From the NCBI GenBank assembly GCA_002793015.1, contig PFPK01000009.1:1-35705 (forward strand): 35,705 bases of DNA, given 5' to 3'. The DNA is from Candidatus Magasanikbacteria bacterium CG_4_10_14_0_2_um_filter_37_12. Lineage in GTDB: Bacteria > Patescibacteriota > Patescibacteriia > Magasanikbacterales > UBA922. This document shows, one piece after another, positions 24,200 through 30,061 of the stretch (position 1 is the stretch's first letter; each line of letters begins with the position of its first letter). The translations under genes and the position numbers were made by a program. The notes under the pieces were generated by a model that worked only from the letters and a program-made list of their open reading frames with translations, was not told the origin of the DNA and made no database searches.

Positions 24200-26581
24200 C
24201 TAGTTATTTTGTTTGTACCGCTGGATGGCTAAAGAAATTATTTCCTCTAGCAAATCCCCAAAGTCCATGCCTACCAAAGTCGCAACTTGGGGCAGATGAA
24301 CATGGGGCAAATCAAATGAAGGGTTGGGATCTAGCTCCAGAACGTAGGGGTTGTCATTTTCATCCACCCGAATCTCGACCCTGCCATAATCTCGACAATC
24401 TAAGATGGAGTATGTATCAAGCGCAATCTCAGTAATCAAAGATTCCAATTTTTTCCCAATATTTTTTGGCGGAGATTGAGTTTTTATATTTTTGTATACT
24501 GTATCTATTCCTTTTTTGGCTAAGTACGTATAGATATGCCAATAGTCTTTAGGAAGTGCTTTGAACACTGATCGTGACAAAGGCAATACACGTAAATCAT
24601 CGTCATCACAACCCAAAATAGACACTTCATATTCATCACCTTCTATATATTCTTCCACAATAACTGGTTTACCATAATCAACAATGATGCGTCGTAATTG
24701 TGTTTCCATTTGTTCCCGATTGGTCACTACAGAATCATTGGTGATGCCAGTAGAATCGTCACTTGTACCTGATTTGACAATCAGCGGAAAGCGCAAATCA
24801 TCTCGTATTTCATCATCAATTTCATAAGCATAATCCCACTTTGGAGTCGGGATATTATGGTATGTGAGCAATTTCTTTGCTTTTATTTTGTCACGACACA
24901 AAGATAACACAAAGCTATCAGACCCAGTATAAGGAATTTGCATTGATTCCAGTATGGCTGCCACTGCAGGCTCCAGATCAGGAGAATTGCCAATCTTCTT
25001 GCACATATTGAACACAAGATCCACGTCACTACGTCGCAAATCATTGAAAGCTTTAGTCAAATTATTGAAATCAAAAAACGTCACCCTATATCCTCTGTCC
25101 CGCAATGTCTTTACTACCACCTTTCCAATTGAGTCATTTCCGCTAGAATCGTCACTCATATTGCCGGCAATGCCAATGTGTAGACCTTTTTGGTCTCCAC
25201 GAAGCATGCGTTTTACTTTTTCTAATTTGGCAACCCGAAGCAACAAATTTTTATTGAGCACAGCAGCGGAGAACCTATCTTTACGCAATGTCTTGCCAAC
25301 AGATGAATCATGATCAAACTTAACAACTTTAAAATTTATTTTTTTCAACGCATTTCTCAAGTTATCTTGAGCATCAAGAAAATTGTCACCAGAGACTGTC
25401 AACCAACCAATATGTTCCTGACCTTCCGGAGGAAGCAAAACAGGATCCCCCACTTCTTTATACAAATTAATCTCTTGAAAATATTTTTCCTTTTTCAAAC
25501 TTTCATCGACCGATAGCTCCACAAGAAGGCCAGAAGATTCAGGATGCAAATCCCAGCCAATGATGTATTGGATTGGCTCGACATCTCTAATTTTGAAAAA
25601 CTGACCTATCGCGATTTTCACAGCATACTCAATCAGATCTATCCCCCAAGCACTTTTGATATAGGAATACGTATAGTCACCGCCAACACGCAAGTTTACT
25701 TCCAAAGGACAAGGGCCATTCTTGGTTGCTTTGGCTTCATAATGGATACACCCATTTTGAATCCCTAATTTTTCCAAAGTCTCCTCAGCGATATCCATCA
25801 AAGCTTGAGTGTTTTCAGGAGGTAATGTAGATGGAGTAGATTGTCCACTGTCGACAAAAAACAAACCCTTATCTTTATTAAAATTATCAGATACTATACA
25901 AAACTTTATTTTGCCATTTTGGATCAAAATATCTATATCTACTTCATCACCATCAATATATTCTTCAACAAATATATCCAAACCATCTGACAGCGATGAT
26001 TCTAGTTCCACACTGACATTATGTTTTAAAAACTTGTAAGTGTTTAACAAGTCTTCTCTATTGGCAACTTTGACCACATAAGCACTACTAGCCCCGTAGG
26101 CTGGTTTTACCACCAATGGAAACTGCAAATTTTTGCAGACAAAATCTATGTCTGTTTCTTCTTTCAAGAAGTGATGTCGTGGAGTCCTAATACCATTTTT
26201 GGCACAAAACTCTCTAAATAAATATTTATTTCTTGTCTGGCGAGCAATATTGTATGAAATTCCGATAAAGTTAAATTTGTCGACGATCTTGGAGGTCAAG
26301 AGTACATCGTCTTCCCAAAATGTCACCACACCATCAATATGGATGTCGGGATTTGATTTTATGAAAGCTCCAACTGCCTTTAATGACTCGGCATGGTTGA
26401 ATGTATCAGCAATAATCCAATGATCAACATGTGGAACTGCCCAATTTTTTTCTTTGTGTAAGACAACGACGATCATTCCTAATTTCTTGAGACGCTGAAC
26501 GATGAAACGTTTTTTGTGTAATCCAGTATTTACCAAAAGAATTGTTTTTCCTTTTAGATTACCAGCAGATTCTATATTCAT
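24200..26581 (-). CDS. Fusion of two ATP-grasp ligase modules (N-terminal carbamoyl-phosphate-synthase/carnosine-synthase-like, C-terminal D-Ala-D-Ala-ligase-like)
   Basis: N-half: RNKYLFREFCAKNGIRTPRHHFL...FPLVVKPAYGASSAYV...VEEYIDGDEVDIDIL...PLEVNLRVGGD. C-half: IPYTGSDSFVLSLCRDKIKAKKLLTYHNIPTP...FPLIVKSGTSDDSTGI...VEEYIEGDEYEVSIL...VLELDPNPSFDLP. Confidence 0.82.
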   Translation of the reverse strand: MNIESAGNLKGKTILLVNTGLHKKRFIVQRLKKLGMIVVVLHKEKNWAVPHVDHWIIADTFNHAESLKAVGAFIKSNPDIHIDGVVTFWEDDVLLTSKIVDKFNFIGISYNIARQTRNKYLFREFCAKNGIRTPRHHFLKEETDIDFVCKNLQFPLVVKPAYGASSAYVVKVANREDLLNTYKFLKHNVSVELESSLSDGLDIFVEEYIDGDEVDIDILIQNGKIKFCIVSDNFNKDKGLFFVDSGQSTPSTLPPENTQALMDIAEETLEKLGIQNGCIHYEAKATKNGPCPLEVNLRVGGDYTYSYIKSAWGIDLIEYAVKIAIGQFFKIRDVEPIQYIIGWDLHPESSGLLVELSVDESLKKEKYFQEINLYKEVGDPVLLPPEGQEHIGWLTVSGDNFLDAQDNLRNALKKINFKVVKFDHDSSVGKTLRKDRFSAAVLNKNLLLRVAKLEKVKRMLRGDQKGLHIGIAGNMSDDSSGNDSIGKVVVKTLRDRGYRVTFFDFNNLTKAFNDLRRSDVDLVFNMCKKIGNSPDLEPAVAAILESMQIPYTGSDSFVLSLCRDKIKAKKLLTYHNIPTPKWDYAYEIDDEIRDDLRFPLIVKSGTSDDSTGITNDSVVTNREQMETQLRRIIVDYGKPVIVEEYIEGDEYEVSILGCDDDDLRVLPLSRSVFKALPKDYWHIYTYLAKKGIDTVYKNIKTQSPPKNIGKKLESLITEIALDTYSILDCRDYGRVEIRVDENDNPYVLELDPNPSFDLPHVHLPQVATLVGMDFGDLLEEIISLAIQRYKQNN

Positions 26582-26639
26582 ATAATAAAACAAAACCAAA
26601 ACAGACTCTAATTGCTTGGGTTATTAAATTTTTGAAATT

Positions 26640-26757
26640 AATTGGCGAGGAAACTTTTCCTCTGTACAGACCTGAAAGAGGTCCATAAATATACAATGTA
26701 GGCCAGTAGCCTGATTCCACTGGTATGTGACCGAGTGGAATGAAATAAACAATTTCA
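26640..26757 (-). ncRNA. Candidate structured 5' leader RNA (riboswitch/attenuator-like) of the double ATP-grasp gene
   Basis: Plus-strand dyads: GAGGAA-ACTT-TTCCTC (26647-26662), GACCT-GAAAG-AGGTC (26669-26683), AGGC-CAGTA-GCCT (26700-26712), ATTCCACT-GGT-ATGTG-ACC-G-AGTGGAAT (26714-26741), GAAAT-AAACA-ATTTC (26742-26756). Confidence 0.6.
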
Positions 26758-26762
26758 ACAAA

Positions 26763-26791
26763 ATTATAAACTTAAATCTACCAGACGTCAA
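26763..26791 (-). promoter_or_regulatory. Sigma70-type promoter upstream of the structured leader
   Basis: Minus strand TTGACG (26786-26791)-N17-TATAAT (26763-26768). Confidence 0.75.
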
Positions 26792-26843: not shown

Positions 26844-27116
26844 TTATTCACCCATCTTACGTCGCACTGCTGCAAGTAATTCAACCTTCAGATCAGGCGG
26901 TAATGCTTCCATATCTGGTCCTAAAAGGTAGGTTTCAAGAGCAAACAAAGCATGCGTAGTTTCGGGAGTTGATCCAACTTCTCTAGCCCGCCTACCATCA
27001 GGAATTCCCAAACCATCTGCTGTAGGTGGAAGACCCATATCAAACGGTTCGGTTTTCGGAGGTTCCTGGTCTTCTCTAGTCACTCCTAGTGGTGCTGGTT
27101 CTCTTTTATCTATCAT
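26844..27116 (-). CDS. Hypothetical protein, 90 aa
   Basis: 5 nt downstream of ileS on the same strand; non-repetitive protein-like composition. Confidence 0.55.
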   Translation of the reverse strand: MIDKREPAPLGVTREDQEPPKTEPFDMGLPPTADGLGIPDGRRAREVGSTPETTHALFALETYLLGPDMEALPPDLKVELLAAVRRKMGE

Positions 27117-27121
27117 ATGAT

Positions 27122-30061
27122 TTATATTTTAAAAATATTAAAACTTATTTTTTTACCATCAATTTCCTTTTCTTCTCCCTCTCCATCTTTCAAATCATCT
27201 GCCAATACTTTCCTCTTCAGATCGTCTGCGTAATCTATAAAAACAGCATTGAGCAATTCATCATTTGTATGATACTGCAAGACAATTCTGTCGTCAATAG
27301 TTAGCCCTTGCTCCTTCCTCATCCCATTTACCATCCGCACGATCTCACGAACAAGGCCCTCTTTTTTTAGTTCGTCGGTAATATTAGTGTTAAGTGCAAC
27401 TTTCAAATCTCCATCTTCTTTCAAAACAAAACTATCTCCTACTTCTTTATCTTCAACATCTACATTCTTAATATTTAATTCTTCACTGACAATATTCAAC
27501 AAATCCTTTGAAAATTGAAAATTAAAAATTAAAAATTCACCAAGTGGTTGTCGTACTGGGATCCCAGCTTCTTTTCGCAGTGAATGTCCCATCTCTGTGA
27601 CTTTCCTCACCTTTTCCATGTCTTTCAAAATATTAGTCTCGATCTTAATCTCAATTGTTGGCCAATCTTCTAAATGTACTGATTCTTTCCTATCTGTAGT
27701 TTGTAGTCCGTCAACAGTAATCTGATATATTCTTTCCGAGATAAACGGTGTAAAAGGCGCCATCACTTTACTAAGAGTTAATAAAACGTAATGCAAAGTT
27801 GCCAATGCATTTTGTTTGTCCTCTTCATCACCACCTTTAAACCTGACACGCGATAAACGCACATACCACTGCGACAAATCCAAAATAAAATCCATGATCG
27901 GCCTAGTCGCTTCATTAATTACATAAGCCTCAAGCCCCTCAGTTACATCTCGGATCAAGACCTGAAGTCGAGCCACAATCCATTTATCGAGAACATGATC
28001 ACTTTCTACTTTTTCCTTATTCCTTGTTCCTTGTTCCTCAAACATCTGAAAAAACTCCACCACATTCCACAGTGTATTCGTCACCTTATTGTACACCTCT
28101 CGCAAACCCTGTTCTGAAAAATTCAAACTCTCCCCCATCATGACCGGAGAAGATAGGAAATAGTATCGTAGAGCGTCGGCACCGTATTTATCAACCATCT
28201 CTATCGGGTCTGGATAATTCTTGAGACGCTTACTCATCTTTTTGCCATCTTCTGCCAAGACCATACCATTCACACTGACATTTTCAAAAGCTGGCTTACT
28301 CTGATCTACTGGAATGGAAGGATTGTCTCCATCAGTAAGGGCAGTAGCCAAGACATGAAGTGTATAAAACCACCCTCTCGTCTGATCTTGACTCTCTGCA
28401 ATGAAGTCGGCTGGAAATCCCGCTTCAAATTCTTCCTTATTTTCAAAAGGATAATGCATTTGACCATAAGGCACAGACCCAGAATCAAACCAAGTGTCTA
28501 AGACATCACCAATACGAGTATATAGTTTACCATCTTTCTCAATCTTGAGTTGGTCAATCTTGTGCTTGTGAATGTCTACTACTTTCTCCCCAGTTAATTC
28601 TTCCAATTCTCTTACTGACCCAACACAAAGGACGTCTCCATCTTCGCTCTTCCAAATCGGCAAAGGCGTGCCCCAAAAACGATTACGCGAAATAGACCAA
28701 TCTCTTACACTTTCGAGCCACTTCCCAAATCTTCCATCCTTAATATGTTCTGGCACCCAATGAATTTTTTGATTATTATCAATTAACTGTTGCTGCAATT
28801 TTGTCACCTCCACAAACCAACTATTGGTGGCGTAATTTAACAATGGTGTATCACAACGCCAACAATACGGATAACTATGCTCATATTTTTTCTTAAAAAA
28901 TAATTTTCCCTCTTTGACCAACCACTTGATAATCTCAACGTCTGTCGCCGTCTGGTCGCCGTCTGGTTTGACATTCATGCCCACAAAATCTGTTACATCA
29001 TTTGTAAATGTACCGTCCATATTGACATGTTGGATAAAAGGAACATTTTCTTTTCGAAATACTTCATAATCATCTGTTCCAAATGCTGGCGCTAAATGAA
29101 CCAAACCTGTACCCTCATCTGTAGTTACAAAGTCTCCGGCCACGATACGAAATCCTTTTTCAGCGCCTTCTACATTGACAAAATATGGAAACAATGGTTC
29201 ATAATGAAGGCCAACAAGTTCCTTTCCTCTTATCTGACTAATAACTTCGAATTCTTTACCACCAAACAAGTCTGGTGACATTAGCAAATTCTTGGCCACT
29301 ATATAATGGACGTTTTCAAACCGCACGACTGAGTATTCAATATCCTGCCCCACTGCAATCAAAATATTTCCTGGCAAAGTCCATGGCGTGGTTGTCCAAA
29401 CTAATAAATAGACCTCTCCCTTTACTCCTGGTAGTTTGTCTGTGATAAAAAATTTGGTCACCGCAGAAAGATCTTTGACATCTCTATATCCCTGAGAAAC
29501 TTCAAAATTCGAAAGTGGCGTTACACAGTGCGGACAGATATGCATTGGTTTTTTCCCTTCATAAATCAGTCCCTTTTTATATAATTCAGAAAAAACCCAC
29601 CAGACACTCTCCATAAATGACAAATCCATGGTCTTGTATGGTTTGTCCATATCCACCCAACGACCCAATCGAGGGATTATTTTTTTCCATTCACTCTCAT
29701 ACATCAACACCTTATCTCGACAAGCCTCATTAAATTTATCTACACCATACTCTTCAATTTCTTTTTTCCCAGGCAATCCCAATTCTTTTTCAACCAGGTT
29801 CTCAATTGGCAGACCATGGCAATCCCAACCCCAACGACGTTCCACACGACGTCCTTTCATGGTGAAATAGCGAGGAACGACATCCTTCTTTGTCCCAGCC
29901 ATGATATGTCCATAGTGAGGCAATCCTGTAGCAAAAGGAGGGCCATCATAAAAAACATACGGATTATCTTCCGGACGAGATTCCACAGATTTTTTGAATA
30001 TCTCGTTTTTATCCCAAAATGAGAGCATTTCTTTTTCGTGTTCACTGGCTTTGTATGGCAT
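27122..30061 (-). CDS. ileS: Isoleucyl-tRNA synthetase, IleS2 (eukaryote-like) type
   Basis: GPPFATGLPHYGHIMAGTKKDVVPRY...RRWGWDCHGLPIE...DGKKMSKRLKNYPDP. Confidence 0.97.
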   Translation of the reverse strand: MPYKASEHEKEMLSFWDKNEIFKKSVESRPEDNPYVFYDGPPFATGLPHYGHIMAGTKKDVVPRYFTMKGRRVERRWGWDCHGLPIENLVEKELGLPGKKEIEEYGVDKFNEACRDKVLMYESEWKKIIPRLGRWVDMDKPYKTMDLSFMESVWWVFSELYKKGLIYEGKKPMHICPHCVTPLSNFEVSQGYRDVKDLSAVTKFFITDKLPGVKGEVYLLVWTTTPWTLPGNILIAVGQDIEYSVVRFENVHYIVAKNLLMSPDLFGGKEFEVISQIRGKELVGLHYEPLFPYFVNVEGAEKGFRIVAGDFVTTDEGTGLVHLAPAFGTDDYEVFRKENVPFIQHVNMDGTFTNDVTDFVGMNVKPDGDQTATDVEIIKWLVKEGKLFFKKKYEHSYPYCWRCDTPLLNYATNSWFVEVTKLQQQLIDNNQKIHWVPEHIKDGRFGKWLESVRDWSISRNRFWGTPLPIWKSEDGDVLCVGSVRELEELTGEKVVDIHKHKIDQLKIEKDGKLYTRIGDVLDTWFDSGSVPYGQMHYPFENKEEFEAGFPADFIAESQDQTRGWFYTLHVLATALTDGDNPSIPVDQSKPAFENVSVNGMVLAEDGKKMSKRLKNYPDPIEMVDKYGADALRYYFLSSPVMMGESLNFSEQGLREVYNKVTNTLWNVVEFFQMFEEQGTRNKEKVESDHVLDKWIVARLQVLIRDVTEGLEAYVINEATRPIMDFILDLSQWYVRLSRVRFKGGDEEDKQNALATLHYVLLTLSKVMAPFTPFISERIYQITVDGLQTTDRKESVHLEDWPTIEIKIETNILKDMEKVRKVTEMGHSLRKEAGIPVRQPLGEFLIFNFQFSKDLLNIVSEELNIKNVDVEDKEVGDSFVLKEDGDLKVALNTNITDELKKEGLVREIVRMVNGMRKEQGLTIDDRIVLQYHTNDELLNAVFIDYADDLKRKVLADDLKDGEGEEKEIDGKKISFNIFKI
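27510..27537. repeat. 7-bp tandem repeat inside ileS
   Basis: gaaaatt gaaaatt aaaaatt aaaaatt. Confidence 0.9.
28014..28041. repeat. 7-bp tandem repeat inside ileS
   Basis: tccttat tccttgt tccttgt tcctcaa. Confidence 0.88.

Follow-up and report, generated by a model that had tools for sequence, protein, structure and literature searches.

We examined a 35,705-nucleotide stretch (the window) of contig PFPK01000009.1 from the genome of Candidatus Magasanikbacteria bacterium CG_4_10_14_0_2_um_filter_37_12, a member of the Patescibacteriota. Its minus strand carries, in order, ileS, a 90-aa ORF, a leader region, a gene for a double ATP-grasp enzyme, and a gene for an M17 leucyl aminopeptidase. 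The features considered below are:

27122-30061, minus strand: ileS, named from its sequence
26844-27116, minus strand: 90-aa ORF between ileS and the leader, without a Pfam or NCBIfam match
26763..26791, minus strand: sigma-70-type promoter TTGACG-N17-TATAAT, 11/12 consensus matches, predicted start near 26756
26690..26757, minus strand: 5' UTR of the leader ORF with hairpins 1-3, stable here and lineage-specific
26756-26742, minus strand: hairpin 1
26741-26714, minus strand: hairpin 2
26712-26700, minus strand: hairpin 3
26624..26686, minus strand: leader ORF (uORF) MDLFQVCTEEKFPRQLISKI with its stop codon; an ORF of the same position and type occurs in 21/22 leaders
26683-26669, minus strand: hairpin 4, inside the uORF
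26662-26647, minus strand: hairpin 5, inside the uORF
26582..26621, minus strand: terminator-like hairpin ACCCAAGCA..UGUUUUGGU (stem 26621-26595) and U-tract UUUUGUUUUAUUAU
24200..26581, minus strand: gene for the 793-aa double ATP-grasp enzyme, with Pfam and PDB matches, putatively controlled by an attenuator

By sequence, the fold class of the double ATP-grasp enzyme is clear: its N-terminal half is closest to the L-amino-acid ligase BL00235 (PDB 3vot), and its C-terminal half to D-Ala-D-Ala ligases (Pfam, PDB). A search of phage proteins returned distant partial matches only. The leader has no second copy in the 871-kb genome, and no local repeats were found apart from one unrelated palindrome; on these grounds, we rejected an origin of the leader as a repeat or decayed repeat.

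A sequence-only reading of the locus had proposed that a structured leader, a new riboswitch or attenuator, controls the double ATP-grasp gene. Its minus-strand promoter was confirmed at 26791-26763; across the whole region, promoter-like matches occurred at the level of shuffled sequence (8 found versus 7.4 expected). Its five hairpins were all present as written, with the ATG of the uORF located in the stem of hairpin 4. The 176-nt leader folded to -44.9 kcal/mol, compared with -30.5 +/- 3.5 in dinucleotide shuffles (z -4.16), and the best fold adds a closing helix, 26757-26750 with 26644-26633, that had not been listed. The alternative pairings also proposed in that reading had no conservation support of any kind.

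This multi-branch fold with its closing helix, together with z-scores of -4.2 for the window leader and -3.5 for the pre-terminator region of the nearest orthologue (L003), speaks for a ligand-binding riboswitch formed by the five hairpins and the closing helix. We nevertheless consider such a riboswitch very improbable. No Rfam family matched the leader, either at the gathering threshold or with the E-value relaxed to 1. Upstream of orthologues, hairpins 1-3 lacked a sequence counterpart even at 85% protein identity, an outcome that the sequence-only reading had itself named as refuting it; hairpins 4-5, which lie within the uORF, recurred only in L003, with identical stems and without compensatory change. 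The pre-terminator fold reached z -4.6 in the window and -3.5 in L003, but was near zero (-2.4 to +0.9) in the other 19 leaders compared. Most other leaders also have a much shorter 5' UTR, with the uORF starting 9-60 nt past the -10 box, which leaves little room for an aptamer. Of the original proposal, the attenuator part is thus the one we retain, and the structured, ligand-binding part, built on lineage-specific hairpins, is not.

The uORF of the window starts with an ATG at 26686, spans 20 codons and stops at 26624. A terminator-like hairpin begins 2 nt past its stop codon, and directly 3' of this hairpin (26621-26595) lie TTTTGTTTTATTAT and the ATG of the gene. Where no clear U-tract terminator had been seen before, a terminator-like hairpin with a U-tract is present, though it is weak here (-4.1 kcal/mol, z -0.9). 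In L003, whose protein is 85% identical, the same hairpin has ten perfect pairs (-13.1 kcal/mol), and MDLLRSLDEDPFPQKFK stands at the place of the window's uORF peptide. The two stems differ by one compensatory change, one G-C to G-U change and two broken pairs. Both peptides carry acidic residues followed by proline, DEDPFP in L003 and TEEKFP in the window; the latter is a diverged form and the least typical among the leaders. Its two glutamates are residues 9-10, within the first 30 codons in which the acidic residues of intrinsic ribosome destabilization (IRD) leaders are sought.

The weaker terminator with its two broken pairs, and the shift from DEDPFP to TEEKFP, would fit a decaying element, once an attenuator, that has lost strength in both terminator and motif and leaves its gene almost constitutively expressed. 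We regard this as rather unlikely, since the uORF and U-tract are intact, the stem includes one compensatory and one G-C to G-U change, and the stable upstream hairpins may compensate. With the weakest motif and terminator among the leaders, the window's copy may be a shallow attenuator, or some of the control may have passed to the strong upstream hairpins, among them hairpin 4 with the uORF ATG. It is the leader family, and not the window alone, that supports the general conclusion.

Searches of Patescibacteria genomes recovered about 70 orthologues of full or half length. Many of those with their own promoter share a common order, namely a sigma-70-type promoter, a short ORF, an intrinsic terminator and the gene, and this layout spans several families and classes of Patescibacteria. 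We compared 22 leaders: 20 identified by their terminator regardless of the motif, the window leader, and L005 (weaker hairpins). The predicted terminators were strong in most orthologues, with a mean z of -4.2. An ATG-initiated uORF ending at the terminator was present in 21 of the 22 leaders, compared with 8.1 expected from dinucleotide shuffles. The acidic-then-proline motif was detected in 18 of the 22 versus 0.15 expected from shuffles, a comparison that is optimistic because the motif expression was written after viewing the same sequences. As defined, the motif comprises one to three acidic residues, at most two other residues, and one or two prolines, all within the first 25 residues. 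It takes the forms SEDPYP, SEEPDS, TDEPDS, SEPDS, KEEPEP, DEPPG, EEDQPPG, DDQPPG, EEPPS, EEPDS and EDPYP, and occurs in at least eight GTDB families, some of them outside the window's class. The uORF peptides of orthologues include MDSSSSEDPYPITN.., MESNYSRSEEPDSYT.., MSHISCTTDEPDSILIKKHSQNC, MGVACLSASDNSEPDSLQVNYLFYL, MEASYSKEEPEPNST.., MNSQEDNQPPGVKINLFNNII, MDSDDQPPGAFQ.., MEITKEEDQPPENLNKNG, MHTSSLEEPPSIVLN and MNQGENDEPPGRG...

As a gene-level control, we considered 113 genes preceded by a gap of 120 nt or more, sampled from 220 kb of one genome (G031), the window and 14 shorter regions. Motif-bearing uORFs preceded 8 of the 11 ATP-grasp genes and 3 of the 102 others (Fisher p 5e-8), in regions that were partly chosen for their ATP-grasp gene and whose other genes were not chosen. 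We rejected the idea that the motif leader is in general use ahead of other genes, as the three cases among 102 in the sampled stretches appear incidental. Several observations count against an attenuator. The window's own terminator is weak and its motif atypical, terminator-like hairpins are common upstream of genes in these genomes (11 of 43 with a stability of -8 kcal/mol or better, including two for this gene), and some orthologues lie in operons or have their own promoter without the leader. The same G031 genome carries two double ATP-grasp genes about 5 kb apart (L003 and L034; C1:28950 and 33899), each with its own promoter, uORF and terminator, and their leaders are wholly different except for the type of motif.

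Comparison of the leaders indicates that the peptide motif is conserved and the RNA structure is not. All four proline codons, both glutamate codons and both aspartate codons are used in the motif; such free codon variation implies that the peptide, rather than a codon or the RNA, is conserved, and argues against the sensing of a single charged tRNA. A leader peptide followed by a terminator, with a ligase gene downstream, would otherwise suit classical trp-type attenuation in response to the charging of Pro, Glu or Asp tRNA. However, codon runs are missing (one or two prolines per motif), Glu and Asp interchange, and there is no antiterminator, which makes this reading highly improbable. The trp-type attenuator was rejected because the leaders tested contained neither a competing fold nor runs of control codons.

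Beyond the motif, little of the peptide is kept, and by this comparison its tail is under no evident constraint. In two leaders from one genus (L045 and L046), the DNA of the motif is almost identical, an indel then shifts the frame, and one uORF stops before the terminator as the other runs through it. Another genome (G072), from the genus to which L008 and L014 belong, encodes the enzyme without a recognisable leader, which shows that the enzyme can be retained in the absence of the element. At this G072 locus (L011), the gene directly follows ileS; the promoter, uORF and 5' arm of the terminator are absent, and only the terminator-loop sequence ATCTAGTTTTTT seems to be left.

In at least four genomes, the motif is found in the N-terminus of the enzyme instead of a uORF, which also counts against an attenuator. 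Its forms there are DDPPPPG (L057), DEEPQPPG (L082), DQDEPPGG (L086) and NEEPPPDP (L100), with the enzyme ATG placed, relative to the match, 90 nt before it in L057 and at -66, -99 and -51 in L082, L086 and L100, respectively. An enzyme-fused motif can alternatively be taken to cause pausing while the enzyme itself is translated. Weaker N-terminal forms, DNPDQ and TDPLP, were seen in L049, L051 and L084. One locus (L098-L100; G918:C17:73757-77568) holds three tandem copies of the gene for the N-terminal ATP-grasp half, the transcriptionally first of which carries EEPPPDP.

In the main rival explanation, the product of the short ORF is itself functional, as a RiPP-like precursor or carrier on which the linked ATP-grasp enzymes act, and the terminator does no more than fix how much peptide is made relative to enzyme. 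Some ATP-grasp enzymes, among them the graspetide ligases and PGM1, are known to use peptides made by the ribosome. The restriction of the motif to one enzyme family, with almost no other sampled gene, its occasional fusion to the enzyme N-terminus (L057, L082, L086, L100), and biosynthetic-looking neighbours (a PP-loop-like protein, a third ATP-grasp, a PLP decarboxylase and GNAT) all agree with this explanation. We judge it unlikely, though, since only the motif is conserved and the remainder varies, the end of the peptide is encoded by the terminator in seven leaders, the frame changes after the motif between the close relatives L045 and L046, and the same-genus G072 keeps the enzyme without a recognisable leader. 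Moreover, the enzyme resembles ligases of free amino acids and D-Ala-D-Ala ligase. One neighbour belongs to a family of about 460 aa that adjoins the double ATP-grasp gene and has PP-loop-like FGKDS/FGKES and C-terminal cysteine motifs. The family had no Pfam or NCBIfam match, and its L106 member had no PDB match either. Its members are:

L110:11643-13028, minus strand
L111:4770-6152
L106:8336-9712, minus strand
L112:9257-10645

In L110, the gene of about 460 aa also lies with a further ATP-grasp gene and a PLP decarboxylase gene. It is possible that these genes, together with the double ATP-grasp gene, form a biosynthetic cluster.

Our preferred reading, held with modest confidence, is that the leader is a transcription attenuator coupled to translation of a leader peptide. 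As in attenuators, the promoter lies upstream of both the leader ORF and the terminator, and in 21 of 22 leaders the end of the ORF falls at the terminator or within it. In the window, RNA polymerase would start near 26756, a ribosome would initiate the short ORF at 26686, and it would meet the acidic-then-proline motif early in that ORF. A ribosome that has passed the motif and keeps up with the polymerase would cover the terminator, so that the ATP-grasp gene is transcribed; one that pauses or is lost at the motif, 20-73 nt before the terminator, would let the hairpin form and transcription stop. Slow or aborted translation would thus be the OFF state. We infer that ribosomes of these bacteria are slowed or lost at the motif, and that this slowing or loss sets termination; candidate signals are EF-P or ABC-F capacity, Mg2+ and the general rate of translation.

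The arrangement of the leaders is largely consistent with such coupling. The motif precedes the terminator stem by 20-73 nt, and the uORF ends range from -14 to +53 nt relative to the start of the stem, with a median of +11. Seven uORFs traverse the whole terminator, and others have their stop codon in its loop or at its base. Where a uORF overlaps the terminator, translation and termination must interfere. When we simulated a ribosome with the motif proline in its P-site, the terminator was free to fold in 20 of 20 leaders; a ribosome held or lost at the motif would thus allow termination, and a moving one would mostly cover or melt the stem. Against this, the uORFs of L058 and L059 stop 13-14 nt short of the terminator, a distance at which a terminating ribosome could not mask it fully. 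In the leaders tested, we saw no antiterminator that would compete with the terminator, and, with one exception, the minimum free energy state of the unbound RNA is the terminator.

These last two results also weigh against an MgtL-like mechanism of opposite sign, in which the gene would be switched ON by drop-off at the acidic motif, for instance when Mg2+ is low. In favour of this mechanism, the motif found here comes closest to the published IRD motifs, namely EPDP of MgtL and the designed NKDEPD, which stall or eject ribosomes early in an ORF (PMC11282234). The MgtL leader of mgtA in Salmonella and E. coli likewise encodes a short peptide with acidic residues and prolines near its N-terminus, and mgtA, which has a Rho-dependent terminator, is induced when translation of MgtL aborts (PMC11282234). 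In our leaders, in contrast, the predicted terminator is intrinsic and the sign is probably opposite. An MgtL-like response would require the untranslated leader to adopt a fold that conceals the terminator, and none was found in the leaders tested. We therefore consider this mechanism quite improbable.

The translation-coupled attenuator has parallels in pyrBI (pyrL) and ampC of E. coli, which likewise combine a promoter, a leader ORF or ribosome site, and an intrinsic terminator at or in the leader ORF, and where the position of the ribosome on the terminator decides without an antiterminator. The pyrBI system senses UTP through pausing of RNA polymerase, whereas conservation of an acidic/proline peptide motif in our leaders suggests ribosome speed as the variable. 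That the ribosome masks the terminator in the pyr leader is on record (cited in PMC5021804), and a polyproline stall placed before the pyrL intrinsic terminator lowered expression 26-fold without EF-P (PMC5021804). That synthetic PPPPPP-pyrL reporter (Elgamal et al. 2016) resembles our leaders in having a proline stall site upstream of an intrinsic terminator, where uncoupling leads to termination, but it is artificial, and the leaders described here are natural and carry acidic residues with one or two prolines. A conserved uORF upstream of a single gene subject to attenuation also occurs at ilvB of Corynebacterium and vmlR of B. subtilis, which respond to branched-chain amino acids or antibiotics. 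The leader is thus special, as the sequence-only reading held, and probably an attenuator, but of another type than that reading favoured; the mechanism outlined above is the one that its anatomy and these published parallels suggest.

Gene regulation in the ultrasmall Patescibacteria is little known. In the literature searched, one paper linked Patescibacteria with riboswitches, and none linked them with leader peptides and attenuation. If the attenuator reading is true, a leader-peptide attenuator is widespread in Patescibacteria, and the synthetic demonstration of a proline stall before a terminator has a natural regulatory counterpart. The leader also points to an unstudied peptide-ligase gene cluster. 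A broader idea, which we offer only tentatively, is a phylum-wide natural sensor of ribosome processivity in Patescibacteria, in which acidic-proline leader peptides would read EF-P/ABC-F capacity or Mg2+ by pausing or drop-off of the ribosome, and the intrinsic terminator where the ORF ends would turn this into transcription of a dedicated peptide-ligase pathway, with the motif moved into the enzyme N-terminus in some lineages. ABC-F proteins, EttA for one, release ribosomes that have paused at acidic residues. The window's genome encodes EF-P, as well as a two-domain ABC ATPase with a weak ABC-F linker match. Elsewhere, a gene for an ABC-F-type ATPase (L109:635-2410; ABC_tran_Xtn match) adjoins a motif-bearing ATP-grasp gene and is convergent with it, and a similar gene is apparently present on the minus strand downstream of the enzyme in L057.
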